Source of the DNA: Streptomyces sp. NA02950
GTDB lineage: Bacteria > Actinomycetota > Actinomycetes > Streptomycetales > Streptomycetaceae
Direction of reading: 5' to 3'
Assembly (NCBI RefSeq): GCF_013364155.1
Contig: NZ_CP054916.1
Span: forward strand, 8,152,001-8,216,000
DNA: 64,000 bases
Part shown: one piece after another, positions 42,203-64,000 of the stretch
How positions within the stretch are numbered: the first letter of the stretch is position 1
Layout of the letters: the number at the start of each line of letters is the position of its first letter
The notes under the pieces: generated by a model
What the model was told of the DNA's origin: nothing
The model's input: the letters and a program-made list of their open reading frames with translations, nothing else
Database searches by the model: none
Translations under genes and position numbers: made by a program

Positions 42203-42209
42203 GGAAACC

Positions 42210-43217: not shown

Positions 43218-43223
43218 GTGAAG

Positions 43224-47390: not shown

Positions 47391-48655
47391 CGGTCACTGC
47401 CTTCCGGGGTGTACTCGACGGAGACGGCGGTCTCCAGGGTGCGGTGGAACTCCTCGGCCTCGGCGGTCGTGGTGTGCCGGGAGAGCACGAACGCCGGATA
47501 TCCGGTGAAGTCCGGGTAGGGGCGCACCACATCGCCGGGGAAGAGCATCTGGACAACATGGTCCACCCGCGGATCGTCATGGAGCTCCGCCAGCCCGTGG
47601 ACCGACTCGATCCGGCCCGAACCGCCGCACGGCACGATGTAGTTGGCCGCGGCGCCGGTGGCGGCGGGGGTGCGGCCGTCACCGAAGGACAGCGGTGACA
47701 GCCCGGCGGCGATCCGCAGCGCGTCCGCGGCGAAGTCCCGTCCGGTGACATGCTGGACGATGTACTGGGACACCCCCGAGCCACCGATCCGGGCGCCCAG
47801 CTCCAGCAGATACGGCCGTTCGCCACCGCGCAGCCGCAGCTCGGTGTGGGTGGGGCCGTCGGAGATGCCGAGGGCGGTGTGTGCGGCCGTGACCTCCCGC
47901 CGGACGGCGTCCTCGACCGCCGCGGGCAGCAGGGCGGGTGCGCGGTAGACGCTCTCCTCGAAGTAGGGGCCTTCGGGCTCGCCCTTGTAGCCGATGGTGC
48001 ACACCGTCACTTCACCCCGGTGGGCCAGGGATTCCACCGCGAACTCGGGCCCGTCGAGAAACTCCTCCACCACCAGGCCCTCGACCCGCCCCAGCTTCGC
48101 GCGGCAGATCTGCCAGACCTCATCGACCACGGCCTTCAGCCGCTCCGGGCGGTCCGCCTTGGTGACACCGAGGCTGGAGAAGCCGTGGGCGGGTTTGACC
48201 ACCACGGGGAAGTCCAGCCGGGTGGCCTCCTCCCAGCCGCGCGGATCCTCCAGCCGTACGAAACGGGGCACATTGAGCCCGGCCGTGGCCAGCCGCTCGC
48301 GCATCACCCGCTTGTCCTGGGCGCCGAGCGCCGCGTCCCGGCCGATACCGGGCAGCCCGAGGAGTTCGGCGGCCTCCGCGACAAACGGCACGGCCGGGTC
48401 GTAGAGGGAGCAGATCCCCTGGAACGGAGTGGTCTCGTGCAGCTTCCGCAAGGCGGCCAGGGCGCCCGCCCGGTCCCGGTCGACGTCCAGGCGCAGGACG
48501 TCCGACACGGCCGGGGGCAGCCGGTCCGGTGCCACGTCCTCGTCGGGGCGGGGGACCAGGACCAGACGGATTCCGGCGCGCTCGGCGCTGTCGAAGACCC
48601 AGGGCAGCGTGGTGCGCTGGTACACCAGGACGACGGTGGGCGGTGATGTGTTCAC
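47387..48655 (-). CDS. ATP-grasp ligase (amino-acid/dipeptide ligase type)
   Basis: A 422-residue ATP-grasp enzyme. The ATP-binding core runs from FPVVVKPAHGFSSLGVTKAD through VEEFLDGPEFAVESLAHRG to LLELGARIGGSGVSQYIVQH, whose Glu and Arg hold Mg-ATP. The N-terminal pre-ATP domain is Rossmann-like (VVLVYQRTTLPWVFD). This is the architecture of BacD-type L-amino-acid ligases and carnosine-synthase-like enzymes, which activate a carboxylate as acyl phosphate and form an amide. It lies between the aminotransferase and an exporter, overlapping both by 4 bases, so formation of a small peptide or amide followed by export is likely. Confidence 0.88.
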   Translation of the reverse strand: MNTSPPTVVLVYQRTTLPWVFDSAERAGIRLVLVPRPDEDVAPDRLPPAVSDVLRLDVDRDRAGALAALRKLHETTPFQGICSLYDPAVPFVAEAAELLGLPGIGRDAALGAQDKRVMRERLATAGLNVPRFVRLEDPRGWEEATRLDFPVVVKPAHGFSSLGVTKADRPERLKAVVDEVWQICRAKLGRVEGLVVEEFLDGPEFAVESLAHRGEVTVCTIGYKGEPEGPYFEESVYRAPALLPAAVEDAVRREVTAAHTALGISDGPTHTELRLRGGERPYLLELGARIGGSGVSQYIVQHVTGRDFAADALRIAAGLSPLSFGDGRTPAATGAAANYIVPCGGSGRIESVHGLAELHDDPRVDHVVQMLFPGDVVRPYPDFTGYPAFVLSRHTTTAEAEEFHRTLETAVSVEYTPEGSDR

Positions 48656-49695
48656 GAGGTTCCTTGTTCCTGACGGATTCCGGACGGCTGGTCGGTGGCG
48701 CTATCGGCGTCGGTGGCATCGGCATCGGCATCGGCGTCGGCGTCGGTGGCGCCGGATGGGGCGGGGTCCGCCCGGCGGGAGCCGCCCACCGTCAGCCACA
48801 CCCCGGCCGCGCAGGCGACGATGAGGACCAGTACCACCGGACCGGGGGCTCCCGCCCACCCCAGCGTCCATTCCCCGAGCCGGATCAGGAAGGGCACGAT
48901 CAGCGCCACCGCGGAGGTGTACAGCGGGCCCCTGCGCAGGATGAGCTCGTGCGAGATGAGGAACACCGGGGCGGTCAGCCCCGCGCCGAGCAGGGCGACG
49001 CCGCCCCAGTCGGCCGCCGTGACACCGTTCAGCGGAACGAAGAGGACGGTCGTCAGCCCCAGCATCACCGCACCCGCCCCCGTGATGGCGGGAAGCGCCG
49101 CCAGCGGTGACACATCGGCCATGCGCTGCCGGTACGCATAGCCGTACAGGGCATAGGTGAAGGTGCCGCCCAGCGCCAGCAGCACACCGGTCAGCAGGGC
49201 GCCGGTGCCGGCCGCCGCCTCGTGGCCCGGGCCGTCCGCCGCCGCGTATCCGCACGCCGCGGCCACCGCGAGCACGGTGCCGCACACCTTGCGGACGGTT
49301 CCGCGCTCGCCGAAGGCCACCAGGCCGATGACGAACGTCAGGCAGGGCAGCAGCGAGACGATCAGACCCACCCGGGAGGCGCCGATCCGGCCGATGCCGA
49401 GCAGGGTGCCCGAGTAGTACGCGAAGAACCCCAGGAACGCCAGCAGCACATACCCGGCCGGGCGGCCGAACGCCGTGCGGACGTCCCGCCAGCCGCGCCG
49501 GTGGCACAGGGCGACCAGTGAGATCGCCAGAAAGCTCGCCGCCGTCCGGCCGGTGGCCACCGCGAGCGCGGGAACACCGTCCACCAGCCGCGCGGACATC
49601 AGCCAGCCCGCGGCGAGCAGCAACACCATCAGCACCGACAGGGCGGGCACCACCAGGGGCCCGCCCTGCCGACGGGGCACCGGACCGCCCGTCAC
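48652..49695 (-). CDS. EamA/DMT-family exporter
   Basis: A 347-residue membrane protein with about ten hydrophobic helices and the two EamA repeats (GYVLLAFLGFFAYYSGTLLG in the first, ADWGGVALLGAGLTAPVFLI in the second). The tail is hydrophilic, Asp/Ala/Thr rich, encoded by a GTCGGC-type triplet repeat around 48700-48750. DMT transporters export amino acids and small metabolites. Overlap with the ligase gene suggests export of its product. GTG at 49695 overlaps the upstream stop as GTGA; GTG at 49698 is possible. Low-complexity C-terminus may vary between strains. Confidence 0.86.
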   Translation of the reverse strand: MTGGPVPRRQGGPLVVPALSVLMVLLLAAGWLMSARLVDGVPALAVATGRTAASFLAISLVALCHRRGWRDVRTAFGRPAGYVLLAFLGFFAYYSGTLLGIGRIGASRVGLIVSLLPCLTFVIGLVAFGERGTVRKVCGTVLAVAAACGYAAADGPGHEAAAGTGALLTGVLLALGGTFTYALYGYAYRQRMADVSPLAALPAITGAGAVMLGLTTVLFVPLNGVTAADWGGVALLGAGLTAPVFLISHELILRRGPLYTSAVALIVPFLIRLGEWTLGWAGAPGPVVLVLIVACAAGVWLTVGGSRRADPAPSGATDADADADADATDADSATDQPSGIRQEQGTS

Positions 49696-50960
49696 CACTG
49701 CGCCATGGCGAACGTCAGCGGCGGCAGCCGGTCCAGCCCCTGCTTGGCGCGCAGCAGTACGCGCTGGTCCTCGGTGAACCGATAGCGCTGCTTCTCCTCC
49801 CCGGCGGGGAGGTACCCGCGCACCAACTCCTTGGCGGCGGCCCGGTAGGCGTCGTCGGTGGTGACCTCGGCCTCCAGTTTCTCGACGGTGGCGACATAGT
49901 CCCGCAGCGCGGCCACGGTGGCCTCCCGGTCCAGGCGCAGCAGACCGCCGTTGTCCGGGGAACCGGTCAGCGCACCGTGCTCACGCAGCCAGGAATACAC
50001 GAACACACCCGTGCCCGAGTCGAAGTTGCGGGTCGCGTCATCGGCTTGCGGGTAGCGGAAGACACGTTCCAGCAGGATCATGGCGATCTGTTCCTCTGCG
50101 TACGGAACTCCACCGTCGGCGCAGGCCAGCGCGGTCTTGGCGTCCACCTTGATCTCTTCGAGCAGCCCCACGAACCAGTTCATCTTCAGCGAGATGTGCT
50201 CGTCGAACGGCCACAGCCCCTGGTAGTGCAGGGAGTCGTGCAGATAGCCCCAGAGCGCGCGGGCCTCGTAACACACCTCCGGTGCCAGATCGCTGGAGGC
50301 GCGGGGCACCGAGTCCGGGGTGAGCACGGCCGCCGCCCCGGGGAGCGCGTAGGTCTCGTGGATGCTGCGCATCTTGTTGTAGAAGAACATGGCGTACGGC
50401 TGCTCAGTGATCTTGTCGTGAGCGGCCACGTTCTCCGGGAAGAAGACCAGGCAGTTGCCCTGCGCGAAGCCGTGGCTGCCGGTGATGAGGATCAGGGCCT
50501 GGCAGTTGTTCTTGGGGTGCGGACAGCTGACGGCCAGCTCCGGCAGCGCCGCGGGCTCCTTGCGCAGCGCGAAGAAGCAGTCCAGCCGCTTGCCCACGGG
50601 CGGTGCGCTGTTGGTGCTCCGCAGCGGCGCGAGGAAGAACACCACATCCCCGTCCTCCGGCGGCCGCAGCGTGTCCCGGGAGCGGGCGAAGTGCGGCGGC
50701 GTGTCCAGCCCGGCAGCGAGCCAGTCCGCCACATCGGCGTGCAGCGCGTCGGCCTGGTGCCCGCGCCCGTGCCGCCGGTACCAGGCGCACGCCTCGTCCG
50801 ATATCCGCGTGAGCAGGGCATGGTCGTCCGATGTGGCCCCGGCGACCGTACCGTCATCGGCCTGACGGGTCCGGAAGCGGTTGACCCACGGTATGAGCGT
50901 GTCCTTGAGCCTCTGGGCCTCGGCGAGCCACCGGGGGTCGAGAGGTGCCTGTGCCGTCAC
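49692..50960 (-). CDS. Large unknown protein with possible metal site (DUF6421-like)
   Basis: A 422-residue soluble protein. I associate it, with limited confidence, with the actinobacterial DUF6421 group. It shows conserved-looking blocks: CPHPKNNCQALILITGSHGF, CLVFFPENV, MRSIHETYALPG, LWGYLHDSLHYQGLWPFDEH and WFVGLLEEIKVDAKTALAC. The His-Asp-x-x-His of LHDSLH followed by EE-x-K-x-D twenty residues later looks like a carboxylate/His metal centre, and the two Cys of CPHPKNNC could also bind metal. No known catalytic family was recognised. It overlaps both neighbours in operon B by 4 bases (GTGA), so it is part of the same pathway as the BacA-like protein and ligase. Confidence 0.65.
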   Translation of the reverse strand: MTAQAPLDPRWLAEAQRLKDTLIPWVNRFRTRQADDGTVAGATSDDHALLTRISDEACAWYRRHGRGHQADALHADVADWLAAGLDTPPHFARSRDTLRPPEDGDVVFFLAPLRSTNSAPPVGKRLDCFFALRKEPAALPELAVSCPHPKNNCQALILITGSHGFAQGNCLVFFPENVAAHDKITEQPYAMFFYNKMRSIHETYALPGAAAVLTPDSVPRASSDLAPEVCYEARALWGYLHDSLHYQGLWPFDEHISLKMNWFVGLLEEIKVDAKTALACADGGVPYAEEQIAMILLERVFRYPQADDATRNFDSGTGVFVYSWLREHGALTGSPDNGGLLRLDREATVAALRDYVATVEKLEAEVTTDDAYRAAAKELVRGYLPAGEEKQRYRFTEDQRVLLRAKQGLDRLPPLTFAMAQW

Positions 50961-51565
50961 AGCGCCACTCCCGCCGTCAGCGCGGCCCCGGCTCCGGCGC
51001 CCATGCCTCCGGTGTCCGCCACCGCCGTATCCATGGCCAGCACCTGGTGGACGGTGAAGACCATCGGGACCGGCCCGAAGTCGCGGATCACCCGCAGCCC
51101 GTGCCGCTTGGCGGCGACGACCGTGGTGATGCAGCCCTCCACCCTGCCCTCGGCGCAGTCGATGGCGGCCTGCGCATTGCTCAGCACCTCATGGATCTCG
51201 GCCGAGTCGGGGACCAGCCCCCTGGGTGCCGGATGCGAGGCCACGGTGGCCGGTGTCGCCGTGCCCCGGGAAGCGAACACCATGTTGTGCGTCGGCATGA
51301 CGAAGCTGTCGACCATCCGTAACCGGTGGAGGTTGCCGAAGACCAGTGTGTGCAGTGCTGGATAGACCGCGCAGGCGGTCAACGCGTGCTCCCCGTCCGC
51401 CGGGACGGCCTCCAGCGCCGATTCGATGGAGGAGTGCAACTGCACGGTTCCCTCGATACCGCGCCTGCGCAGCCATTCGTGGGATGCGGCTTCCAGATTG
51501 GTCCCGTGCGGACCGAGTGTGTGCAGATGACGGACGTGGTCGGGTCCGGCATGGATATGCCGCAT
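50957..51565 (-). CDS. BacA/prephenate-dehydratase-fold protein
   Basis: First gene of operon B, 202 residues. HTLGPHGTNLEAASHEWL corresponds to the start of prephenate dehydratase-like proteins. The ASHPAPRGLV, STSQAA-like NAQAAIDCAEGRVEGCITTV and FGPVPMVFTVHQ segments follow the order seen in BacA, the prephenate decarboxylase of bacilysin. The N-x-T-R-F motif of true dehydratases is missing, which favours a BacA-like role, giving a dihydro-hydroxyphenylpyruvate. No BacB cupin or ACT domain is present. The last 25 residues are Gly/Ala-rich. ATG 51565 follows GGGGGAATC. It shares no promoter with the FolD operon; 420 bases separate them. Confidence 0.7.
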   Translation of the reverse strand: MRHIHAGPDHVRHLHTLGPHGTNLEAASHEWLRRRGIEGTVQLHSSIESALEAVPADGEHALTACAVYPALHTLVFGNLHRLRMVDSFVMPTHNMVFASRGTATPATVASHPAPRGLVPDSAEIHEVLSNAQAAIDCAEGRVEGCITTVVAAKRHGLRVIRDFGPVPMVFTVHQVLAMDTAVADTGGMGAGAGAALTAGVAL

Positions 51566-51985
51566 GATTCCCCCATGTGTTGGTGATTCCTGGTGGGCCT
51601 CGGTGGATGTCTCTTCGAAGCCACGAGGATCAAAACAGGAAAAAACGCATGGAAACAAGTGTCGTCGGTAGATCTTTGCAAATGACATGCAGGGGTGGCC
51701 GATTATCGTCGGTAGCCGGCCAACCGGGTGGAGAGCCAAACGGAATTCGGCGATCCACCCCATCCCGCGCCGGCCGCGCATCCGTCTCCGGCTCGACACC
51801 GGCCCTGACGCCGCGGTGGTGCGACCGACGGCTCCGATCGTGAACAGTGGTTCACGGGTGGGGGCGGCGACGCGTGGCCGGTGTTTTCCGGGTTTCGGGA
51901 ATAGCCGAAAACCATTGACACGGGTTCAAGCCCACACGGGCCGCCGCCTTCGGCATCGCGGCGCCGCCCGTGTCCACCGCCGCGG
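51566..51985. other. Intergenic region between operon B and operon C
   Basis: No gene seen. The left half, which must hold the operon B promoter, is AT-rich and contains two direct copies of TCGTCGGTAG (51662-51671 and 51706-51715). The right half has an imperfect hairpin, GGTTTCGG (51891-51898) with CCGAAAACC (51905-51913), lying downstream of folD and a candidate terminator for operon C on the minus strand. Confidence 0.45.
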
Positions 51986-52828
51986 TCAGCCGCCCGCGGC
52001 CTGGACGGTGTGGCTCAGTAGCAGGGCGGTGGTCACCGGCCCCACACCGCCGGGCACGGGAGTCAGCGCCCCCGCCTTCCCGCTGACGGCGGTGGCGTCG
52101 ACGTCACCGGTCAGTCCGCCGTCCTCGGTGGGGTTGGTGCCCACGTCGATCACCACGGCGCCGGGTGCGACATGGTCGGCCGTGATCATTCCGGCCCGGC
52201 CGACGGCGGCCACCACCACGTCCGCCGCCGAGGTGACCGCGGCCGGCTCCCGGGTGCGCGAATGACACACGGTGACCGTGGCGTTGGCGTTCAGCAGCAG
52301 ATGGGCCACGGGCTTGCCGACCACCATCGAGCGGCCGACGACAGCGACATGGCGCCCGGTGAGTTCGACCCCGTGGTGTTCCAGGACGCGCACCACCGCC
52401 TCGGCCGTCGCCGGGGCGAACGCGGGCAGCCCGGCGGCCAGCCGCCCCAGGGACACCGGGTTGGCCCCGTCGACGTCCTTCTCGAACGCGATGGCCCCGG
52501 CCAGCTCCTGGAGCGAGGCGCCCGCGGGCAGCGGGGTCTGGAGGATGATGCCGTGCACCCGGTCATCGGCGGACAGCTCCGCCAGCCGCGCCCGGATGGT
52601 CTTTGGCGCGGCCGTGGCTCCCAGGTCGACGATGTCGCAGGTGATACCGGCCTTCCCGGCCGCCCTGGCGATCGACCGGACGTACCACGCGCTGGACTCG
52701 TCCGCGGTGGCCACCACGACTGCCAGCCTGGGTTCCGTACCGGCGGCGGTCAGCGCCGCCGCGCGGTCGGCGGTCCCGGCACGGATCGCGGCCGACAGCT
52801 CCTTGCCGGTAAGCACCGTGGCGCTCAT
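51986..52828 (-). CDS. FolD-like methylene-THF dehydrogenase with altered cyclohydrolase site
   Basis: A 280-residue FolD homologue. Family motifs include IILQTPLPAG (Gln97), FEKDVDGANPVSLGRL (Asp120), HVAVVGRSMVVGKPVAHLL, the NADP site, and GALTPVPGGVGPVTTALLL. The catalytic lysine of Tyr-Val-x-x-Lys is Ile53 here (WYVRSIARAAG), while Tyr49 remains. In characterised FolD this Lys is essential for cyclohydrolase activity, so this protein may only interconvert methylene- and methenyl-THF, or act differently. It overlaps the cyclodeaminase gene by 4 bases. Being inside a biosynthetic region, it is probably not the housekeeping FolD but a one-carbon supply enzyme for the pathway. Confidence 0.9.
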   Translation of the reverse strand: MSATVLTGKELSAAIRAGTADRAAALTAAGTEPRLAVVVATADESSAWYVRSIARAAGKAGITCDIVDLGATAAPKTIRARLAELSADDRVHGIILQTPLPAGASLQELAGAIAFEKDVDGANPVSLGRLAAGLPAFAPATAEAVVRVLEHHGVELTGRHVAVVGRSMVVGKPVAHLLLNANATVTVCHSRTREPAAVTSAADVVVAAVGRAGMITADHVAPGAVVIDVGTNPTEDGGLTGDVDATAVSGKAGALTPVPGGVGPVTTALLLSHTVQAAGG

Positions 52829-53445
52829 GCGGCGATCCGCTCGCGCACGGCGGTGGTCACCCGCTCCGCCCGCGCCACCAGAGTGGGCACCCTCGCCGCC
52901 GCCGCGGTCAGCTCCCCGTAGACGAGCTCGTCCCGTACACCGCCGAGGTTGATCTCGACATTGACCCGGGCCGTGGTGGCCGCGGCCCGCGCGGCCTCCG
53001 ACGCGGCGGCCACATCGGTGATGACATTGGGGTTGCCGACCGGCAGTAGCTCCTCGGCCAGTTCGACCACCACCTGCGCCACCTCGATCACCTCGGCCGG
53101 TGGTCTGCCCGCCTCGGCCAGCGCCCGCGCGATCGCCGCCGAACGCGCGGCCTTCGCCTCATCGGTGTCCTTCGGCAGCCCGTACGCCTCGGACACCGCC
53201 GTGAACGCCGCCGCGTCCGCCTCCGCCAGCCGCAGCGCCTCGTCCCGCAACCGGTCCGACTCGGACGTGACCCACTCGACGATGTCCTGGTGCTCGGCGT
53301 ACTTCTCACCCGTGCTGTAGCGGGCCACCATTCCGAGCAGCGCCGCGGCCTGCGCCGCGTGCAGCGCGGCGACGGCGCCGCCACCGGGCGCCGGTACCCG
53401 GGCGGCGAGTTGGGTCAGGAATTCGCCGATCTTCTCATCACGCAT
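52825..53445 (-). CDS. Cyclodeaminase/cyclohydrolase family protein (FTCD C-domain type)
   Basis: A 206-residue helical protein matching the formimino-THF cyclodeaminase domain: MRDEKIGEFL, then VPAPGGGAVAALHAAQAAAL and LLPVGNPNVITDVAAASEAA, TTARVNVEINLGGV. In the known reaction, 5-formimino-THF gives 5,10-methenyl-THF plus ammonia. Paired with a dehydrogenase-only FolD, it would provide methenyl- and then methylene-THF without 10-formyl-THF. ATG 53445 is used, with GGAGG 11 bases upstream; an in-frame GTG at 53466 is possible. First gene of operon C, divergent from the lectin-type gene. Confidence 0.88.
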   Translation of the reverse strand: MRDEKIGEFLTQLAARVPAPGGGAVAALHAAQAAALLGMVARYSTGEKYAEHQDIVEWVTSESDRLRDEALRLAEADAAAFTAVSEAYGLPKDTDEAKAARSAAIARALAEAGRPPAEVIEVAQVVVELAEELLPVGNPNVITDVAAASEAARAAATTARVNVEINLGGVRDELVYGELTAAAARVPTLVARAERVTTAVRERIAA

Positions 53446-53723
53446 GAACGCTACGTCCTCCGTCACGGATACAGCCCACGTACACCACCCGCCCCGGAAT
53501 CCTCCCACGCGGGCGAGGGCCGCCGCCGGGACGTGGACGGGCGCGCCGCCGGATCGTCCCCGCCCGCGGGAACGGTGCCGGACCCGCCGCCGGACAAGGC
53601 CCGGGAACTCCCAGCGCGATCCGGTGCGACGATCCTGTCGCCGTCCCTGGGCCTACCGGCGGTGACCTGGTACAAAGGCCACTCGATCCGGCACCACCGC
53701 AAGACCGAGAAGAGGCGCCCTCC

Positions 53724-54704: not shown

Positions 54705-55934
54705 CTACTCCACCGCCACCGAGGTGGTGACCGACCGCCACGCCCCGACGCACCGCTCCCCGTCGTAGACCGCCTCCACCACCGCGGGACGGCTCAGGAA
54801 ACGGACCAGGCTCGCGCTCAGCCCGTACGCGCCCACGTTGGGCACGTACAGCAGATCGCCCTCGCGCGGGGCGGGCAACGACGCCCGGACGGCCAGCCGG
54901 TCCAGCGGTGTGCACAGCGGCCCGACCACATCGGCGGTGACCGGTTCACGGTGCCCAGCAGGGAGAGCCTCCCCATCAACCACGAGCGGGAGGAAACCCG
55001 TGGTCGGCCTCAGCACCCGGCCCAGTCCGCTCATCCCGCCCAGCACATTGATCCCGGCGTCCAGCACCACCACCGTGCCCTCGGGGCGCTCCTTGACGTC
55101 CCGCACCGTGGTGACCAGACGGCCCGCCGACGCGACCAGGCGGCGGCCGGACTCGAAGTGCACCTCGGGCGCCGGGCCGGTGGCCCAGTCGGACAGCAAC
55201 CTGCCCAGCCCCGCCCGCAGTCCGGTCAGCGCTGGACCCGTCCCGGCCGTGGCGTACGGCCAGGGGAAGCCGCCGCCCAGGTCGACCACACCGGGGGTGA
55301 TCCCCGCCATTCCGCTGACCCGCTCGATGGTGTTCTTGGCGGTGGCGAATCCCTCCAGCAGGGCGGTGACATCCGGGAACTGCGACCCGAGATACACATG
55401 GCAGCCGCGGAGCGCGATCCCGCGCGGCAGTACGGCGCACGCGTGTGCGGCGTCCTCGGGCGTGAACCCGAACTGGCGGCCGTCGCCCATGGACAGCCCC
55501 GCCTTGGTCCCGGTCGGCGGCTGGAGCCGGAGCAGCACCTCCGCCGTACGTCCGGATCCGGCCACCGCACGGCCGAGACGGCGCAGTTCGGCGGCCGACT
55601 CACAGGAGAACCACCTCACGTCCCGCGCGAGCGCCTCCTCGATCTCGGCGGGGGATTTGCCCGGGCCCGTGTACAGGACGTCCCGCGGGCGGTATCCGGC
55701 CTCGAGCGCCGCGGCCAGCTCCCCGGGAGAGGAGACCTCGGCCCGGCATCCGGCCCGCCGGAGTTCGGCGGCGACCGACGGATGGGGGTTGGCCTTGAGC
55801 GAGTAGAACAGCCCGGCCGACGCGGGGAGGGCCGACCGCAGATCCGCCACCCGGCCCCGCAGTTCGGCGAGATCGTAGACGTAGAGCGGTGTGCCGAACC
55901 GCTCGGCGGCCCGGCGGAGAATGCGCTCGATCAC
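54705..55934 (-). CDS. PLP-dependent decarboxylase (BtrK/DapDC/OrnDC type)
   Basis: A 409-residue alanine-racemase-fold decarboxylase. It contains the PLP lysine in FYSLKANPHPSVA, the phosphate-binding GGGFPWPY, HVYLGSQFPD, and the substrate-site Cys of LCTPLDRL contributed across the dimer, followed by VGAYGLSAS. This is the LysA/ornithine decarboxylase family, including BtrK, which decarboxylates glutamyl-ACP in butirosin biosynthesis. Divergence from a free ACP gene 247 bases away, plus nearby ATP-grasp and luciferase-like genes, favours an acyl-ACP substrate over diaminopimelate. GTG 55934 is the likely start, immediately before homology. Confidence 0.86.
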   Translation of the reverse strand: MIERILRRAAERFGTPLYVYDLAELRGRVADLRSALPASAGLFYSLKANPHPSVAAELRRAGCRAEVSSPGELAAALEAGYRPRDVLYTGPGKSPAEIEEALARDVRWFSCESAAELRRLGRAVAGSGRTAEVLLRLQPPTGTKAGLSMGDGRQFGFTPEDAAHACAVLPRGIALRGCHVYLGSQFPDVTALLEGFATAKNTIERVSGMAGITPGVVDLGGGFPWPYATAGTGPALTGLRAGLGRLLSDWATGPAPEVHFESGRRLVASAGRLVTTVRDVKERPEGTVVVLDAGINVLGGMSGLGRVLRPTTGFLPLVVDGEALPAGHREPVTADVVGPLCTPLDRLAVRASLPAPREGDLLYVPNVGAYGLSASLVRFLSRPAVVEAVYDGERCVGAWRSVTTSVAVE

Positions 55935-56042
55935 GTCGCAGCGTCCGTTCCTGGTTCGTCGCCCGCGGCAGCCGTGATGGTGCCCCTCGGCGGATGCCCC
56001 GGTTCCGCGGGCCGGGCGTCCGACGCGCCCGTCGCCCCGTGC

Positions 56043-56071
56043 TTGCAGCGGGTAGATCGCGCGCTTACTGT
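56043..56071 (+). promoter_or_regulatory. Candidate promoter of operon D
   Basis: TTGCAG (56043-56048) and TACTGT (56066-56071) with 17 bases between them form a good HrdB-type promoter in the decarboxylase-ACP divergent gap, about 110 bases before the ACP start. Between it and the gene lie two direct copies of AAGGCYGTTG (56101 and 56117), 16 bases apart, which could be regulator sites. Confidence 0.5.
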
Positions 56072-56181
56072 ACTCCCATTCGCCGCCTGCGGAATGGCCC
56101 AAGGCCGTTGCGAGACAAGGCTGTTGAGCCTCCTGGGACTCGATGGAACACAGGTGCGTCGCACTGAGAGAGGGGGGTCTC

Positions 56182-56454
56182 TTGAGCGGTATCGACACCA
56201 CCGGTCCGGCCATCACCGATCGACTGGTGGAGACACTCAACAGCCACCTGCGGAACGTGCCGCCCGACGTGGACTGGGCCACCGTCAGGCTGCCCGACGT
56301 CGGCCTGGACTCGATGTCCGCGATCGAACTGGTCATCACCCTCGAGGAGCTCTTCGGCGTGCAGTTCCCCGATGAGCTGCTGGTGCGGGAGACCTTCGAA
56401 CACCTGCCGTCGCTGGAGGCCGCCGTCCGCTCCCTGCTGGGCGAGCGGGCCTGA
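56182..56454 (+). CDS. Free-standing acyl carrier protein (BtrI-like)
   Basis: A 90-residue discrete ACP. The phosphopantetheine Ser lies in VGLDSMSAIELVITLEELFG, followed by acidic helix III (FPDELLVRETFEHLPSLEAA). TTG at 56182 is chosen because AGAGAGGGGGG sits just upstream; an ATG at 56143 would give 13 extra residues without a site. First gene of operon D, opposite a BtrK-type decarboxylase. It most likely carries the amino-acyl group (for example glutamyl then 4-aminobutyryl, as on BtrI) while the decarboxylase and luciferase-like enzyme act on it. An ACP dedicated to the PKS starter is the alternative. Confidence 0.9.
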   Translation: MSGIDTTGPAITDRLVETLNSHLRNVPPDVDWATVRLPDVGLDSMSAIELVITLEELFGVQFPDELLVRETFEHLPSLEAAVRSLLGERA

Positions 56455-56510
56455 CGCCGCGCGGCGGCCGCGCCGCCACCACCCCCCCACCAGATGGGAG
56501 ACACCACGGG

Positions 56511-56765
56511 ATGAGCGCCCACGTACCCACGTTCGAGGAATTCGTCCGCCCGCTGCTCGCCACCGCCGGTGCGCCGGACTACGAGACCACCCCGCTGAGC
56601 CGGCTGACCGCCGGTGACTTCGCCGTCCTGGCCTGGCTCGACGACCTCGGTGTCGACCTCCCCGCCGATGTGGAGGCGGAGCTGGTGGCCCGCTGGGACA
56701 CCGCGACCCCCCGCGATGTCTACGAGATGGTCTTCTCCACCACCCCGGGAGCCGCGTGCTCATGA
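56511..56765 (+). CDS. Small ACP-like protein without the phosphopantetheine serine
   Basis: An acidic 84-residue protein. Its helices follow an ACP-like rhythm: TTPLSRLTAGDFAVLAWLDD corresponds to the loop and helix II region, then GVDLPADVEAELVARWDTAT, PRDVYEMV. At the expected attachment site the sequence is AGDFAVL rather than DSL, so it cannot be pantetheinylated. It may be a degenerate carrier protein acting as a docking or scaffolding partner of the true ACP just upstream or of the hydrolase whose ATG overlaps its stop. GGGAGACACCACGGG precedes the ATG. I recognise no named family. Confidence 0.65.
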   Translation: MSAHVPTFEEFVRPLLATAGAPDYETTPLSRLTAGDFAVLAWLDDLGVDLPADVEAELVARWDTATPRDVYEMVFSTTPGAACS

Positions 56766-57934
56766 CCGTGACCACGGAGCTCGACCTCAGTGCGGTGCGA
56801 CGGCTGTTCGACGCGGAGATCGACCGCGGAATCGAGACCGGGGTGCAGCTCTCGGTCTCCTGCCGGGGCCGGGTGATGGACCTCGCCGTCGGCGACAACG
56901 GCGCGGGCCACCCGATGACCACCGACACCTTCGTCCCCTGGACCTGCTCCTCCAAACCGGTCGGCGCCCTGGCCTTCGGCCGGGCGTGGGAGTCCGGCGC
57001 CGTCGACCCCGACACCCCGGTGTCCACGGTGCTCCCGGAGTTCACCGGCGGTGGCAAGGAACGGGTCAGGGTCCGCGATCTGCTCACCCACACACTGGGC
57101 ATGCCGGACCCGGTGCTGGCCGTGAACACCGGGGACACCGATCTCTCCGCGTTCACCTGGTCCGATATCGACGCGCTGATCTGGGCGGTGATCTGCGACG
57201 CCACCACCGGGCCACTGCCCGGCGCCGCCATGGTCTACAACCCGGTGACCACCTGGTACGTGCTGGACCGGCTGCTCACCACCCTCACCGGCGGCCGGTC
57301 CGGGGACAGTTACCGCGACCTCCTCGGCCGCCTCGGCCTCACCGCCACGCTCGGCCTCGACCCCGGCGTACCCGCCGACCGCCAGGTCACCGTCACCGCC
57401 TCGGCCGACCAGGCGGAGGGCTTGGCCTACCTGCGGCTGGCCAGCGCGCTCCCGCTGCCCGGAGTCGGCGTCTGGGGCGCCGTACGGGATCTGCGCGTCG
57501 TCGGCGAAGTGCTGCTGATGAAGGGCGTCCACCAGGGTGTTCCGCTCGTCGGGCCCGCCACGGTGGAGGCGCTGACCGCCACCCACTGGCCCGGTTCGCC
57601 CGACCGCTCCATCTGCGACACCGACTTCCCCTACGGCCTCGGGGTGATGACCCTCCCGGCCGTCTTCGGCCGCCGCACCTCCGCACGGACCTTCGGCCAC
57701 GCGGGCGGCAACACCTCCACACTGCTGGTCGACCCGCTGTTCGACCTGGTGGTGGCGGTGTACTGGAACGGCCGGCTCGACGACGTACGGACCTTCGCCC
57801 GCCGCTACGCACTGGTGCGGGCGCTCTACGACGACCTCGGACTGCCCCGGCTGCCCCGCGCGGGACGACCGGTGGCACCGGCCGGGACGGAAGAGGAGCG
57901 GCCATGGGCAGCGCCCGCACCAGGACCCTGGTGA
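56762..57934 (+). CDS. Beta-lactamase-fold protein with Cys-x-x-Lys active site
   Basis: A 390-residue class C beta-lactamase/esterase homologue without a signal peptide, so cytoplasmic. The nucleophile motif Ser-x-x-Lys is changed to Cys-Ser-Ser-Lys in VPWTCSSKPVGALAFG. A Tyr in MVYNPVTTWYVLDRLL and HxG in GHAGGNTSTLL supply the other elements. Cytoplasmic relatives such as CapW of the capuramycin-type pathways act as transacylases that form amides. An ACP-linked acyl donor would fit here, since the gene overlaps the ACP-like gene (ATGA) and the P450 gene (31 bases). A Cys nucleophile would suit thioester exchange. Hydrolytic activity is the alternative. Confidence 0.85.
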   Translation: MTVTTELDLSAVRRLFDAEIDRGIETGVQLSVSCRGRVMDLAVGDNGAGHPMTTDTFVPWTCSSKPVGALAFGRAWESGAVDPDTPVSTVLPEFTGGGKERVRVRDLLTHTLGMPDPVLAVNTGDTDLSAFTWSDIDALIWAVICDATTGPLPGAAMVYNPVTTWYVLDRLLTTLTGGRSGDSYRDLLGRLGLTATLGLDPGVPADRQVTVTASADQAEGLAYLRLASALPLPGVGVWGAVRDLRVVGEVLLMKGVHQGVPLVGPATVEALTATHWPGSPDRSICDTDFPYGLGVMTLPAVFGRRTSARTFGHAGGNTSTLLVDPLFDLVVAVYWNGRLDDVRTFARRYALVRALYDDLGLPRLPRAGRPVAPAGTEEERPWAAPAPGPW

Positions 57935-59283
57935 ACCGGCTGCCGGGCCCCACCCCGCTCGGCCACCTCCGCTACCTCAAAGGGCTGCTCGGCAAGCCCT
58001 ACGACGCCCTGCTCGAACTGCACCGCGGCTACGGTCCGGTGTGCGCGTTCGGCGTCGGCGGCCAGAAGTACGTACTGCTCTTCGGCGCCGAGGCCAACGA
58101 ACTGCTGCTCACCGACTCCCCGCGCAACCCCAGGTTCCTCTCCCGCGACGTCCTCACCCTGCTCATCCCGGTGGTCGGCGCCAACGCCATGGTCGTCAGC
58201 GACGGTGAGGACCACCGGCGCCGCCGGGCGCTGGTCCGCCCCGCCTTCGTCCGCAAGCGCATCGAGGGCTATGTCCCGGTCATGGTGAACGAGATCCACC
58301 GCATGATCGACGGATGGCGGCCCGGACACACCGTGGACGCCTTCGCCGATGTGCGCTCCTGCATCCGGCGGATCGCGATCCGTTCCCTCTTCGGCGACCG
58401 GCTGAAGGCGCACACCGACGAGATCGGCCGTGAACTCCAGACAGCGCTGAACTACATCAACCGCTCCCCGTTCCTGCGCTTCGACCACGATCTGCCCGGC
58501 ACCGCCTACCGCCGCGCCATGGCCGCACGCGAGCGCGTCGACCGTTACGTACGGGCGGAGATCGCCAACCGGCGGGCCGAACCCAACGACCAGGGCGATG
58601 TTCTCGACGCCCTGCTCGAGTCGTACTTCGAGGGCGACCACCTCGCCGACCTCGAGGTGCGCGACCAGGTCATCAGCCTCATCGCCTCGGGCTACGACTC
58701 CAGCAGCTCGGCGGCCGGATGGGCGGTGTACGCCCTGCTGAAACACCCCGAGGTGCTGCGCCGTGTCCGGGACGAGGTGGCGCGGGCCGCGGGAGACGAG
58801 CCGCTCAGCGCGGAACTCGTGGGCAGGATGGACTACATCGGCTGGACCGTCTCCGAGATCCTGCGCCTGTACACCCCCGGAGTGCTCACCGGAAGGACCT
58901 CGGTGGAGGACTTCGAGTTCGGCGGACACCTCGTCCCCAGGGGTGCCAGGGTGCTCTACTCCCAGTACGTCACCCACCGGATGCCCCGCCTGTGGACCGA
59001 CCCGCTCCAGTTCCGCCCGGAGCGCTGGAACACCGCCGCCCCGGACTACCGCGAACCCGTTCCCTACAGCTTCGTCCCCTTCGGCGGGGGCTACCGCCGG
59101 TGCATCGGATACGCCTTCGCCGAGCTCGAACTGAAGCTGCTCATCGCCGAGTTGGCCCGCCGCGCCGACCTCGCACCGGTCAGGAGCACGGTCCGGCCCA
59201 CCGGCGTGGCCACCATGTGGCCCGACGGCGGAGTCCCGGTGGCGGTGCGGGAGATCAGACCGCCGGTGGGTGGCCCCGGATGA
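57904..59283 (+). CDS. Cytochrome P450
   Basis: A 459-residue P450. It has the haem motif FGGGYRRCIGYAFAELELKL with the proximal Cys, the ExxR pair in TVSEILRLY, and the I-helix LIASGYDSSSSAAGWAV, where the usual acidic-Thr pair is Asp-Ser. The sequence resembles bacterial CYP102/CYP110-like class E P450s more than the short class I type, with PERW (FRPERWN) before the haem loop. No reductase domain or ferredoxin gene lies nearby. Start ATG 57904 has AAGAGGAGCGGCC upstream and overlaps the preceding gene by 31 bases. It would oxidise the pathway product or the carrier-bound acyl group. Confidence 0.93.
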   Translation: MGSARTRTLVNRLPGPTPLGHLRYLKGLLGKPYDALLELHRGYGPVCAFGVGGQKYVLLFGAEANELLLTDSPRNPRFLSRDVLTLLIPVVGANAMVVSDGEDHRRRRALVRPAFVRKRIEGYVPVMVNEIHRMIDGWRPGHTVDAFADVRSCIRRIAIRSLFGDRLKAHTDEIGRELQTALNYINRSPFLRFDHDLPGTAYRRAMAARERVDRYVRAEIANRRAEPNDQGDVLDALLESYFEGDHLADLEVRDQVISLIASGYDSSSSAAGWAVYALLKHPEVLRRVRDEVARAAGDEPLSAELVGRMDYIGWTVSEILRLYTPGVLTGRTSVEDFEFGGHLVPRGARVLYSQYVTHRMPRLWTDPLQFRPERWNTAAPDYREPVPYSFVPFGGGYRRCIGYAFAELELKLLIAELARRADLAPVRSTVRPTGVATMWPDGGVPVAVREIRPPVGGPG

Positions 59284-59314
59284 CACCCACCGAGCCGGAA
59301 GAAGGGGACCGCCC

Positions 59315-60283
59315 GTGCCGTCGTGGCCGCTCACACTGAGCTTCATCGTCCCGCCGCACTCCGCGCAGTTCGGCTACGGCGGCAGACTGAAGCCCTCGGT
59401 CTACCTCGGGCGGCTCACGGCCTATATGGACGCCGCCGAGGCGATCGGGGTCACCGGGGCCTTCGTCTACGACTTCCCGGTCGCCATGGACCCCTGGCTC
59501 GCCGCCTTCGACGTGCTCGCGGCCTCCACCGCGCTCGAACCCGTCGTCGCCGTCCGCCCCCACCAGGAGAGCGCGGAGTCGGTGGCGCGCCGCGTCGCCG
59601 ACCTCGGCTACCGCTTCGGCCGCCCCACCCACGTCAATGTGGTCGCCGGAGCCACCCGCCCCTCCCGCGCCACGGCCGACGACCGGGGTGACAAGGTCGC
59701 GGCACGCGCCGAACTGGGCCGCTACGCCGAGCGGTTGAGGGAAGAACTGGACCAGCGGTGCGACCCCGCCACCGGACACCCCCTGCTCGTCACCCCCTCC
59801 TCCGCCACCCCGGGCCTCGTCCCGGCCGACTGCGTGCTGATGATGGCCCGGCCACGGATCGCGCTCGCCGAGAGCGTCGGCCGGGCCCGCGAGGAACAGA
59901 ACGTGGACCGGGTCTCCATGCTCGTGGGTGTGGTGGCCCGGAACACCGAGGACGAGGCGTGGGCGGCCGCCCGCCGCCTCAGCGCACCCGACCGGCGGCA
60001 GCAGGTCGCCGGGCGGATGTTCATGTCCCAGGTGGTCTCCAGCGAGCACCTCGCCAGTTACGCCCTCGCCGAGGAGGAGGAGACCCACGACGAACGCCTC
60101 TGGTACGGGGCACCGGCGCGGGGGATCGACGCGCCGAAACTGGTCGGCTCGGTGGACCAGGTGGCCGCATGGCTGATGTCGTGCCGGTCCCTGGGCGTCA
60201 CCGACCTCATCATCGACCTGGCCCCCGACAGCGCCGAGTACGCCTTCGTGGGTCAGGTGGTCCGGGCGTGCGGACGCCCCTGA
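59315..60283 (+). CDS. Luciferase-like flavin monooxygenase (BtrO-like)
   Basis: A 322-residue LLM-family FMN/F420 enzyme (TIM barrel). The typical blocks are LKPSVYLGRLTAYMDAAEAI, VYDFPVAMDPWLAAFDVLAA, THVNVVAGATRPS and the C-terminal LVGSVDQVAAWLMSCRSLGV. It is closest in style to alkanesulfonate-monooxygenase-like enzymes, which use FMNH2 and oxygen. BtrO, which hydroxylates the 4-aminobutyryl-ACP intermediate in butirosin, is of this family; the neighbouring ACP and decarboxylase suggest the same type of substrate. No flavin reductase (BtrV equivalent) is in the window. GTG 59315 has AAGGGGACC upstream; a longer frame from 59270 has none. Confidence 0.87.
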   Translation: MPSWPLTLSFIVPPHSAQFGYGGRLKPSVYLGRLTAYMDAAEAIGVTGAFVYDFPVAMDPWLAAFDVLAASTALEPVVAVRPHQESAESVARRVADLGYRFGRPTHVNVVAGATRPSRATADDRGDKVAARAELGRYAERLREELDQRCDPATGHPLLVTPSSATPGLVPADCVLMMARPRIALAESVGRAREEQNVDRVSMLVGVVARNTEDEAWAAARRLSAPDRRQQVAGRMFMSQVVSSEHLASYALAEEEETHDERLWYGAPARGIDAPKLVGSVDQVAAWLMSCRSLGVTDLIIDLAPDSAEYAFVGQVVRACGRP

Positions 60284-60346
60284 CCACCGCACCGGCGCCC
60301 GCCCGGCGATCCGGCGAACTCACGGCACAACCCGGCAGGAGTACCC

Positions 60347-61618
60347 ATGAAGAGGTGGACGGCCTCGACCCGGCTGCTGCGCGACCCCCGGTTCCGGCGC
60401 TTCTCCATCGGCTACTTCGCCTCCCTGTTCGGTACCGGCATGGAGGCCGTCGGAGTGGCGTTCGCCGTACTGGACAGCGGCCACTCCGCCGCCGGGCTCG
60501 GCAACGTCCTGACCGCCGGGGTCGCCGCCAACGTCTGCTGTCTGCTGGTCGGCGGAGTGATCGCGGACCGTTTCAGCCGCCGTACGGTGATGCTCTGCTG
60601 CGACACCGTCCGCTGTGCCGGGGAGGCGTCGTTCGCCGCCCTCATCCTGTTCGGGCACCCACCGCTGTACTGGCTGGTCATCCTGTACATGGTGCAGAAC
60701 GCGGCGGCAGGGTTCTACATGCCCGCCCTCGGCGGGCTGACCCCGCAGTTGGTCCCGGTCGACGATCTGCACGACGCCAACACCTACCTCGGGCTGGCCA
60801 GGGACATCGGCCGGGTGCTGGGGCCTGCCGCGGCGGGTGCCGTCGCCGCCGCGCTGGAACCCGGCGCCGTCCTGGCCATCGACGCGTTCACCTTCGCTGT
60901 CAGCGCGGTCACCCTCGCCTCCATCAGGGTGCCCGCGAAACGGGGGAAGGAACGCCCCTCACCGCTGCGCGACCTCGCCGACGGCTGGCACGCCTGGCGG
61001 TCACGCCCCTGGATCTGGATCACCAGCGCACGGTTCGCCCTGTTCAACTCGGTCGTCTACGCACCGCTCATCGTGCTCGGCCCGGCGCTCGCCAAGGAGC
61101 GCTTCGGCGGCGCGGACGGCTGGGGGATCGTGCTCACCGCGCTGGGTATCGGCGCGGTGGCCACCGGACCGGTCATCATGGGCCGCACCCCCGCCCGGCC
61201 CCTGGTGGTGCTCACCGCCTTCCATGTGACCTGGGCGCTGCCGCTGCTGGCCCTCGCTCTGGACCTGCCGCTGGCCGTGATCGCCGGAGGCGCACTGCTC
61301 GCCGGTACCGGCTCCGCCGTCTTCAACGCCGTCTGGTCGTCGACCCTGCAACGCAACGTCCCGGCCGAGGTGATGGCCCGGATCACCTCGCTCAGCACCC
61401 TGTGCTCCTACGCGCTCGCACCGCTCGGCCTCGCGGTCGCCGCCTCGGTGGCGGACTCCGTCGGTGCCGACAACGTCCTGCTGTTCGGCGCGGGCTGGCA
61501 TGTGCTGAGCGTGCTGCTGGTGCTGGCCCTGCCGCCCGCGCGGCGCTTCACCGGTCAGACACCCACGGCCCCCGCGCGGACCGCCCAGCCGGTCGGGATC
61601 GAGAGCGACACCGTCTGA
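60347..61618 (+). CDS. MFS exporter
   Basis: A 423-residue major facilitator superfamily protein with about 12 helices. It starts FSIGYFASLFGTGMEAVGVA and contains the loop 2-3 motif GGVIADRFSRRTVMLCCDTVR. This is the drug-efflux (MFS_3/enterobactin-exporter EntS-like) type. Last gene of operon D, 63 bases after the luciferase-like gene, with GGCAGGAG upstream. Likely exports the finished compound and contributes to self-resistance. A weak hairpin (CGGCC/GGCCG near 61640) lies between it and the convergent GNAT gene. Confidence 0.92.
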   Translation: MKRWTASTRLLRDPRFRRFSIGYFASLFGTGMEAVGVAFAVLDSGHSAAGLGNVLTAGVAANVCCLLVGGVIADRFSRRTVMLCCDTVRCAGEASFAALILFGHPPLYWLVILYMVQNAAAGFYMPALGGLTPQLVPVDDLHDANTYLGLARDIGRVLGPAAAGAVAAALEPGAVLAIDAFTFAVSAVTLASIRVPAKRGKERPSPLRDLADGWHAWRSRPWIWITSARFALFNSVVYAPLIVLGPALAKERFGGADGWGIVLTALGIGAVATGPVIMGRTPARPLVVLTAFHVTWALPLLALALDLPLAVIAGGALLAGTGSAVFNAVWSSTLQRNVPAEVMARITSLSTLCSYALAPLGLAVAASVADSVGADNVLLFGAGWHVLSVLLVLALPPARRFTGQTPTAPARTAQPVGIESDTV

Positions 61619-61658
61619 CCCCGCCACGGAAACCGGTGCGGCCCTTCCGGCCGACGTG

Positions 61659-62837
61659 TCAGGCGTACACCGTCCACTCGTCCTCGTCCAGCGCGCCCTT
61701 GACCGCCGGGACGGACTCGCGCAGCTCCTCGGCGAAGGCACGGTTGTGCGCCCGGACCGCGTCGTCATGGCCGCGCAGCACACTGTCCTCCGACAGATCC
61801 AGCAGCCACAGGGGGCTCAGCCGGGCGCCCCGGAGCACCTTGGCGCCGGGTGAGGACATCCCCAGATGCAGGCGGCGTACCCCCGGCAGGCCCAGCAGCC
61901 GGTAGTACGTGAGGTTGGCGTACTCCGCCGCGCCACGCAGCCTCGGATAGTCGAACCCCACGGCCCGGGCGTACACCGTGTCGCCGCTGCGGCAGTACAT
62001 ACAGCAGCCGACCGCGGCCCCGTCGTCCGGATCGCGCAGCAACAGCACCTCGGCGACCTCGCCCGCCAGCTCGCCGTGGCGGCGGAAGCCCTCGGTGAAC
62101 GCCTCCAGGTCCACCGCATGGCCGTACCGCCGCTGGGTCCCGGCCGCCAGCCGGGCCACGTCGCCGTACACCTCGGGCAGCGGATGGTGCTCCACCCGGT
62201 ACCCGGCGCGCTCGAAGTCGGACAGTTCCCGGCGCACCGTCTGCCGCCGCTTGGAGGTCAGCGAGGCCAGCCAGGCGTCCCGGTCGCCCTCCGGTACGTC
62301 GATCGCCGCGTCCGCGGCCAGCACGACCGGCAGGGTGTCCACCCCGGCGGAGCGCAGCGCGGCCACGTCCTCGCTGGTGAAGTACATCGCCACCCGGGTG
62401 CGGGTGTCCTCCAGCGGGGAACCGGCCGCGCGGACCCCCGCCAGCAGGCCCCCGGCCGCGTCAGCGGTGTGCGAAGCGTCCGGGGTGGCGCGCGGCCCGG
62501 TGAGCAGATGGGCGAGATAGCCACGCCGCTGGCCCACCAGGATGCCCTGCGGCGGGGGCTGGGGGAGGCCGTGCCGGGCCAGCACATCGCTCCAGCGGTA
62601 GTTGGTGTTCTGTTCGCCCGTCACCGCGGAGACCGGTACCGCGGCCCGTCCGCCGCCCGTGAGCCGGGTGTGGACCGCCCCCGACACACCGCCGGGCTCC
62701 AGCGCGCACAGCCGCAGCCACAGAGCCGAGGAGTAGAAGCGGTCGGCAGCCAGTTCGTCCCACGTGGTGTCGTCCAGACCGCCCAGGGGATCCGTGAAGC
62801 AGCCGGTGGTCGTCGACGGACTCGTTGAGTGGTCCAT
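61659..62837 (-). CDS. FemAB/BioF2-like GNAT-fold acyltransferase
   Basis: A 392-residue double-GNAT protein. SLTSKRRQTVRRELSDFERA, then LLLRDPDDGAAVGCCMYCRS and RGAAEYANLTYYRLLGLPGV, GMSSPGAKVLRGARLSPLW are the blocks of the CelD/BioF2 (peptidoglycan-interpeptide-like) acetyltransferase group. Relatives use acyl-CoA, acyl-ACP or aminoacyl-tRNA to build amides. Next to an ATP-grasp gene and an ACP pathway, transfer of the carrier-bound amino acid is plausible. ATG 62837 is chosen at the start of homology-like sequence; no strong ribosome site precedes it. It is divergent from the ATP-grasp gene and converges with the MFS gene. Confidence 0.75.
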   Translation of the reverse strand: MDHSTSPSTTTGCFTDPLGGLDDTTWDELAADRFYSSALWLRLCALEPGGVSGAVHTRLTGGGRAAVPVSAVTGEQNTNYRWSDVLARHGLPQPPPQGILVGQRRGYLAHLLTGPRATPDASHTADAAGGLLAGVRAAGSPLEDTRTRVAMYFTSEDVAALRSAGVDTLPVVLAADAAIDVPEGDRDAWLASLTSKRRQTVRRELSDFERAGYRVEHHPLPEVYGDVARLAAGTQRRYGHAVDLEAFTEGFRRHGELAGEVAEVLLLRDPDDGAAVGCCMYCRSGDTVYARAVGFDYPRLRGAAEYANLTYYRLLGLPGVRRLHLGMSSPGAKVLRGARLSPLWLLDLSEDSVLRGHDDAVRAHNRAFAEELRESVPAVKGALDEDEWTVYA

Positions 62838-62980
62838 ATGGGCAGCATACAAAGGCAGTTGACGCAGATCACGGATGTCGTGGCGTCCTCGACTCGATAT
62901 GTCACGCGCCGTAGACTCGGCTGACGATCTGACAGATGGCGCCGGTCTCCGCACCGTCGGTGCCCGCTCGGAAGGCGGAC

Positions 62981-64000
62981 ATGACCCACACCCCTGCCCG
63001 TTCCGATGGCTACCTCCTGGCGATCGGGGCACATATGGCTCTGCGGGAGCGGGCGCTGGTGTCCGCGATCCGCCTGTTCCCGGGACCGATCGCCACCATC
63101 TTCGCCGCCCCCGGCGCGCGCTCGGCCAAGTTCTTCGATCACATCATCACCGGAGACCCCTTCGCCCCACGGGCGGCCCTCGAAGCGGTCCAGGCGTTCG
63201 AGCGGGAGACCGGGCTGCGCCCGGCGGCCGTCGTCCCCTTCATCGACGGCGGCCTCTGGGCGGGCTTCGCCATCGCCGAGCACTACGGGGTCCCGTACCT
63301 CTCCCGGGAGGCGATCGAGAACTCCTCCATCAACAAGGACCGGATGAAGGACGTGCTGCGGGCCGCCGGGGTGCGGACACCGCGCTACGTCAAGGTCGCG
63401 GGCGCCGCCGAGGTGGCGGCGGCCGTCGCCGAGCTGGGACTGCCGTGTGTGATCAAGCCCGCCGCGTTCGGCGGCAGCCTGGGCGTACGCCTGGTCGGCT
63501 CCACGGCCGAGGCCCAGGAGGCCTTCCGGTACGTCATGGAGATCATCGACCGCAACGCCGCCACCTTCTCCGTCGTCAACCGAAGTGTTCAGGTCGAGGA
63601 GTTCTGCGACCTCACCGAAGAGGTGTCCGTGGAGGTGCTCAACCACGGCGACCGGCGTGAGGTGCTGGCCGTCGTGGACAAGGCGCTGGGCCCGCGTCCG
63701 CACTTCGCCGAGATCGGACACCGGGTGCCGAGTGTTCACACGGACGATACGGAGCTGCGTGACCTGGCCGTCAGGGCCTGTCAGGCGATCGGGCTCGACC
63801 GGGGTCTGGCCCATGTCGAGATCCGGCGGCAGGACGGGCATGAGCCGGCCGTCATCGAAGTGGGCGCCCGGACGGCCGGTGGCGGCATCCTCGACCAGGT
63901 GGAACGGGCCACCGGCCTTGCCCCGTACGCCCTGCACATCGCGTCCTACCTCGACCTCGACCCCGACTTTCCCGACCCGGGCCCGACCAGTCCGGAGGCC
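62981..64000 (+). CDS. ATP-grasp enzyme (BtrJ-like carrier-protein ligase?), cut by window edge
   Basis: The first 340 residues of an ATP-grasp protein, still open at the window end. It shows LPCVIKPAAFGGSLGVRLVG (P-loop-like), VQVEEFCDLTEEVSVEVLNH, AHVEIRRQDGHEP and AVIEVGARTAGGGILDQV (Mg-ATP Glu and Arg). The length missing is probably 50-90 residues. In butirosin synthesis an ATP-grasp enzyme, BtrJ, loads glutamate onto the ACP BtrI; this gene is the best candidate for that step. Carnosine-synthase or BacD-like amide ligases share the fold. ATG 62981 has GGAAGGCGGAC upstream. A 143-base divergent gap separates it from the GNAT gene. Confidence 0.87.
   Translation, partial: MTHTPARSDGYLLAIGAHMALRERALVSAIRLFPGPIATIFAAPGARSAKFFDHIITGDPFAPRAALEAVQAFERETGLRPAAVVPFIDGGLWAGFAIAEHYGVPYLSREAIENSSINKDRMKDVLRAAGVRTPRYVKVAGAAEVAAAVAELGLPCVIKPAAFGGSLGVRLVGSTAEAQEAFRYVMEIIDRNAATFSVVNRSVQVEEFCDLTEEVSVEVLNHGDRREVLAVVDKALGPRPHFAEIGHRVPSVHTDDTELRDLAVRACQAIGLDRGLAHVEIRRQDGHEPAVIEVGARTAGGGILDQVERATGLAPYALHIASYLDLDPDFPDPGPTSPEA

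Follow-up and report, generated by a model that had tools for sequence, protein, structure and literature searches.

A recurrent actinomycete gene set that may tailor a carrier-bound beta-amino acid and lengthen it with the help of aminoacyl-tRNA and an ATP-grasp ligase

How is a carrier-bound amino acid made and used at a Streptomyces locus that encodes a decarboxylase, an acyl carrier protein (ACP), a flavin monooxygenase and an ATP-grasp ligase side by side? The locus lies in Streptomyces sp. NA02950, at the end of the window analyzed here, a 64,000-nt stretch (C1:8152001-8216000) of the 9.77 Mb genome. A sequence-only reading of the window had placed it at 54705..64000, within a polyketide cluster, and likened these four proteins to those that build 4-amino-2-hydroxybutyryl-ACP from glutamate in butirosin biosynthesis. 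We found that the gene unit does start at 54,705, and that it extends approximately 8 kb beyond the window end, running on with metH, two FGE-like genes, an AMP-binding ligase gene and a radical S-adenosylmethionine (SAM) gene. Most of the unit recurs in 11 actinomycete loci from four genera, which is more than chance. On balance, we favor the view that this cluster, free of nonribosomal peptide synthetase (NRPS) and polyketide synthase (PKS) genes, modifies a beta-amino acid bound to the ACP and lengthens it through amide bonds whose formation depends on tRNA and on an ATP-grasp enzyme.

The gene set, its conservation, its motifs and its predicted folds are read from the sequence, and a Pfam search of the window proteins recovered most of the genes named in the sequence-only reading, in the places where it had put them: those for the decarboxylase, ACP, P450, beta-lactamase-fold protein, FemAB-like protein (LPG-synthase/FemAB-like) and ATP-grasp enzyme. 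The unit begins on the minus strand with a pyridoxal phosphate (PLP) decarboxylase of the VinO/BtrK type (54705..55934; PF02784/PF00278, supported by PDB matches and a tree), whose open reading frame (ORF) opens at 56522 and whose probable start is a GTG at 55934. On the plus strand follow a free ACP with a GLDSM serine site (56143..56454; PF00550, E = 5.2e-8), a small ACP-like protein, here called the pseudo-ACP (56511..56765), a beta-lactamase/esterase-fold protein with cysteine for the catalytic serine (56762..57934; PF00144, E = 4.3e-35, and an esterase A alignment), a cytochrome P450 (57904..59283; PF00067, E = 1.5e-65), a luciferase-like, SsuD-like flavin monooxygenase (LLM; 59315..60283) and an MFS transporter (60347..61618; PF07690). 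A FemX-like double-GNAT transferase, putatively aminoacyl-tRNA dependent, is encoded on the minus strand (61659..62837; PF09924, E = 6.1e-7), and the plus-strand ATP-grasp ligase gene (62981..64000; PF13535, E = 2e-14) ends at 64264, outside the window. Beyond the window end lie, in order, the 3′ part of the ATP-grasp gene, metH, two genes with FGE-sulfatase domains, the AMP-binding ligase gene and the radical SAM gene, followed by genes for a methyltransferase and a LuxR-type regulator.

The LLM protein is seldom encoded: of 394 genomes from the family, 2 gave a match at E ≤ 1e-20. A protein search at E ≤ 1e-10 gave 76 matches to it; counting the protein of the window itself, 75 had 53–100% identity, and the remaining one had 27%. 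The beta-lactamase-fold protein gave 97 matches, 90 of them at 50–94% identity and the other 7 at no more than 31%. A scan of GTDB genomes yielded 12 loci: 10 in actinomycetes, one in Paenibacillus athensensis (35%) and one unrelated (26% LLM match on a 5.5 kb contig, L026), the last being excluded from the counts. Counts therefore take in 11 actinomycete loci, this genome and the 10 found, with the Paenibacillus locus (L024) kept apart, and a gene was counted where a tblastn match in the fetched flanks covered at least 35% of the query. By this measure, the LLM, P450, beta-lactamase-fold, ACP, FemX-like and ATP-grasp genes were present in 11 of 11 loci, the M. parastrephiae ATP-grasp match having only 26% identity. 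The AMP ligase and both FGE-like genes occurred in 10 of 10, the S. coffeae contig stopping within metH; the decarboxylase gene occurred in 10 of 11 and the radical SAM gene in 9 of 10, both missing from the S. zingiberis stretch. Glutamate mutase E, S and L genes accompanied 8 of 11 loci (the exceptions being this genome, S. coffeae and S. zingiberis), the pseudo-ACP was found in 8 of 11, and ThiF-like and F19 genes in 4 of 11. Gene order differed between loci, and the counted genes covered 13–27 kb in ten of them (S. coffeae excluded). The gene content and its conservation are solid.

We also observed variants of this set. In M. parastrephiae the P450 match (L023:6641-7998) is split between two frames, which may reflect a frameshift or an error in the sequence. 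S. zingiberis (L025 with L050 and L051) carries a version with ThiF-like and F19 genes and no decarboxylase, radical SAM or mutase genes in the 50 kb fetched. The Paenibacillus locus encodes a BtrH-like protein, two AMP ligases, a decarboxylase, an ACP, an acyl-CoA dehydrogenase, an LLM protein, a DegT aminotransferase and glutamate mutase; with the M. parastrephiae locus it has in common a BtrH-like gene as well as families of ligases, ACP-like proteins and dehydrogenases. The two glutamate mutase copies of this genome were considered as orthologues of the cluster genes and rejected at only 31–41% identity; one adjoins a VinO-type PKS locus.

The placement "in a polyketide cluster" proved wrong. 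A bimodular, two-gene PKS region does occupy positions 26,694-36,503, 18–28 kb away, and the 18 kb gap between it and the unit holds an L-amino-acid-ligase operon, a folD/FTCD_C pair and a lectin gene. When tblastn matches were required to cover 35% or more of the query, none was obtained for PKS1, PKS2 or KASIII in any of the 11 other joined loci; by blastp, one ORF lying at the outer edge of the fetched A. auranticolor sequence was 34.8% identical to PKS1. No NRPS was found in the gene set common to the loci. This non-conservation, together with the 18 kb separation, ruled out the PKS as a member of the unit. It is correspondingly very improbable that the ACP branch supplies a starter or side chain for this PKS: the two share a genome neighborhood, and known VinO-type routes provide starters for PKSs (excerpts of PMC11284099), but other operons intervene, and the edge ORF of A. 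auranticolor is the only one to resemble PKS1. The PKS genes belong to a separate region (26694-45050) with KASIII, FAD monooxygenase, AfsA-like, amine oxidase, desaturase and acyl-CoA dehydrogenase genes.

Which enzyme, then, loads the ACP? The GLDS motif of the ACP could be read at 10 of the 11 loci, Symbioplanes lacking a usable row. We aligned the AMP ligase with a VinN-type ligase from another locus of the same genome, whose best PDB match is VinN itself (3wvn, E = 5.2e-188), and set VinN residue numbering through the 3wvn alignment. The equivalents of VinN Asp230, Ser299 and Arg331 were kept in 10 of 10 checkable actinomycete loci and in Paenibacillus, and we therefore expect the substrate to be aspartate or 3-methylaspartate, activated at the beta-carboxyl, rather than glutamate. 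Two observations weigh against this assignment: the genome's own VinN-like ligase carries threonine at the Ser299 site, so the residue set is not strict, and the two residues preceding the Arg331 equivalent differ in the cluster ligase (AF for CK). Most likely, judging by these residues, the AMP ligase rather than the ATP-grasp enzyme loads the ACP, and loading of glutamate by the latter is not supported. In the pathway we favor, the ligase would activate the beta-carboxyl of aspartate, or of 3-methylaspartate where the cluster has glutamate mutase genes, and transfer it to the free ACP. The home of that VinN-type ligase (L036; C1:8530001-8550000) is a second locus for a carrier-bound beta-amino acid: it contains PKS sequence and glutamate mutase as well as genes of the VinN and VinO types.

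Decarboxylation of a carrier-bound amino acid, as the sequence-only reading had it, gained support. VinO decarboxylates 3-methylaspartyl-VinL (excerpts of PMC11284099), and among PDB matches of the decarboxylase BtrK ranked best (7ru7, E = 9.4e-45; 2j66, E = 5.2e-42), the best diaminopimelate (DAP) decarboxylase reaching 2.5e-39. In a tree of 17 rows, in which inner forks remained open and long-branch warnings were raised, one split (support 89/91) separated L001, L002 and L004 from BtrK, the VinO-type paralogue, L006 and every cluster enzyme. L001 and L002 are the genome's two lysA proteins, above the NCBIfam cut-off, and the 10 actinomycete cluster decarboxylases grouped together at 100/99. 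The clustering with free DAP enzymes that would have counted against the sequence-only reading was therefore not seen. In the favored pathway the decarboxylase would yield beta-alanyl-ACP or 2-methyl-beta-alanyl-ACP. A pathway closer to that of butirosin would agree with BtrK as top PDB match and with the presence of ATP-grasp and LLM genes at every actinomycete locus; in it, glutamate would be put on the ACP and given a protecting gamma-glutamyl group by the ATP-grasp enzyme, then converted to gamma-aminobutyryl-ACP by the decarboxylase and hydroxylated by the LLM enzyme, leaving the AMP ligase some other task. We nevertheless consider it unlikely, given the VinN specificity residues of the ligase, a decarboxylase nearer to the genome's VinO-type paralogue (44.6% identity) than to BtrK (31%), a BtrH-like gene in only M. 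parastrephiae and Paenibacillus among the 12 joined loci, and an ATP-grasp enzyme whose best PDB matches are BacD and L-amino acid ligases, that is, dipeptide ligases.

Tailoring of the aminoacyl-ACP would fall to the LLM flavoenzyme and the P450, joined by the radical SAM enzyme and the two FGE-like proteins. The luciferase-like protein had no Pfam match at E ≤ 0.1 and matched SsuD-type NCBIfam models far under their cut-off, while some relatives carry PF00296. Among the 45 matches of the Paenibacillus relative none was named BtrO, and most were nameless.

A predicted model of the FemX-like protein (pLDDT 81) has a double-GNAT fold, and its best structure matches are Sbb17/Sba18, which are aminoacyl-tRNA-dependent peptide synthases; absence of a family name from such match lists carries no weight. 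K334, within an AKxLRGA stretch, was invariant in the 9 aligned rows, of 11 loci. The protein is likely to be aminoacyl-tRNA dependent. A rival reading is an amine antimetabolite pathway resembling that of valanimycin, in which a free amino acid is decarboxylated, the LLM and P450 enzymes oxidize the amine, a tRNA-borne amino acid is joined on by the FemX-like protein, and the ACP and AMP ligase serve an acyl partner only. VlmA is a FemX-like seryl-tRNA transferase (excerpts of PMC12945691), and oxidase, decarboxylase and FemX-like genes co-occur here; yet we judge this route improbable, since the decarboxylase sits on the BtrK/VinO side of the tree, away from lysA, and the trios VinN-VinL-VinO and BolO-BolC-BolN have their counterparts here in the ligase, the ACP and the decarboxylase. 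In the ACP-bound pathway that we prefer, the FemX-like protein would attach an amino acid from aminoacyl-tRNA to the tailored beta-aminoacyl group, and the ATP-grasp enzyme would form a further amide bond.

Release may involve the beta-lactamase-fold protein, whose cysteine nucleophile, already proposed in the sequence-only reading, was confirmed as CSSK (the form in this genome) or CSAK in 11 of 11 loci. The adjoining pseudo-ACP, which that reading had missed, is an ACP-like protein of 84 aa without the phosphopantetheine serine, having G[DE][FY] in place of the ACP DS, and in A. auranticolor it forms a single protein with the beta-lactamase-fold enzyme. Docked via the pseudo-ACP, the cysteine enzyme would remove the acyl group from the ACP by transthioesterification and transfer or release it, and the MFS protein would export the product. 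For the pathway as a whole, we infer substrate, step order, tRNA dependence, acyl-transfer role and product.

What might the product act on? The metH gene just past the window end (L007:10306-13902) has a second copy at C1:7400101-7403598, which ruled it out as a plain single housekeeping gene; among 40 relatives, 36 have one copy and four have two. From residue 376 on, the two copies are codon-for-codon identical save for one residue in 823 codons, and over residues 1–375, among 366 codons, 86 residues differ and another 54 codons are changed synonymously, so that divergence is almost confined to the homocysteine domain. This domain of the cluster copy retains GLNC and GGCC and groups with one S. 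coffeae copy (100/100, branch 0.27). S. coffeae has both MetH N-terminal types, at separate contig ends, as would be expected if a near-identical remainder broke the assembly; one of these pieces ends its cluster contig. M. parastrephiae has its sole MetH on the cluster contig near 57.5 kb, the M. sonchi cluster contains a MetH gene ordinary for its relatives (76–84% in both halves), and the other fetched stretches had no MetH match over 35% of length. Gene conversion in which the homocysteine domain is maintained separately would fit self-resistance or a changed thiol acceptor, hinting at MetH as a target or self-resistance gene, although the identical part may instead be an assembly error. 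As a speculative and rather doubtful extension, the cluster could stand for a new family of peptides assembled with tRNA, in the absence of NRPS and PKS, whose warhead, a beta-amino acid tailored on the ACP, hits the homocysteine domain of B12-dependent methionine synthase; the mosaic MetH, kept diverged in that domain alone, would then protect the producer.

Further one-carbon genes lie on the minus strand at a possible cluster edge: folD (51986..52828) and an FTCD_C/FchA-type cyclodeaminase gene (52825..53508), with the lectin gene between the latter and the decarboxylase gene. Of 41 genomes, FTCD_C occurs in 2, the present one and a single relative; of the 11 genomes behind the loci it occurs in 3 (S. 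coffeae, A. bangkokensis, on a separate contig, and A. auranticolor). The pair is of an unusual subfamily found also at the A. auranticolor cluster edge. FolD is 79% identical to the FolD there, 61–62% to the next best (A. bangkokensis and one Streptomyces relative) and 38–46% to other copies, a pattern which suggests that it moved together with the cluster. Beside this pair, on the minus strand (46503-51799), is an overlapping five-gene operon for a class IV aminotransferase, an L-amino acid ligase, an EamA transporter, a DUF6421 protein and a PDT-like protein, which we take to be akin to a bacilysin-type dipeptide operon; S. coffeae keeps only the L-amino acid ligase, adjoining folD.

No title or abstract among the open-licence PMC matches listed describes this gene set, which is apparently undescribed and a variant of known beta-aminoacyl-ACP pathways. 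If our reading is correct, the cluster family would join beta-aminoacyl-ACP supply, which feeds PKS or NRPS in the examples read, with aminoacyl-tRNA-dependent peptide bond formation in one compact unit; the cysteine beta-lactamase fold and pseudo-ACP could be a new carrier-protein off-loading pair, and the MetH mosaic offers a direct target hypothesis. The set resembles vicenistatin VinN-VinL-VinO in its ligase residues, free ACP, BtrK/VinO-type decarboxylase and, at most loci, glutamate mutase genes (excerpts of PMC11284099), and bolagladin BolO-BolC-BolN in its ligase-ACP-decarboxylase trio (excerpts of PMC7756342). Those systems have a PKS or NRPS acceptor, whereas the shared set here has neither and adds LLM, P450, FGE-like, radical SAM, cysteine beta-lactamase-fold, FemX-like and ATP-grasp enzymes. 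The exosortase A-associated pair TIGR03098/TIGR03099 gave the top NCBIfam matches of ligase and decarboxylase, both below cut-off, but no exosortase is among the genes annotated here. The tRNA-synthetase-linked peptide operons predicted by Iyer et al. (2010) likewise combine ACP, tRNA-related ligation and BtrO-superfamily flavin monooxygenases, and, in excerpts of that paper (PMC2922099), center on a methionyl-tRNA-synthetase-like protein and a cupin, neither of which is among our annotated genes. Butirosin BtrI/J/K/O shares an ACP-bound amino acid, a BtrK-like decarboxylase, and an LLM flavoenzyme and ATP-grasp enzyme in one cluster; unlike it, the present cluster has an AMP ligase, a probable aspartate or 3-methylaspartate substrate and no aminoglycoside genes seen. 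Finally, FemX, VlmA, Sba18/Sbb17 and MprF have in common with the FemX-like protein the double-GNAT fold of its predicted model and the invariant lysine in AKxLRGA, at approximately 9–17% identity; unlike in known aminoacyl-tRNA transferases, its acceptor may be carrier-bound.

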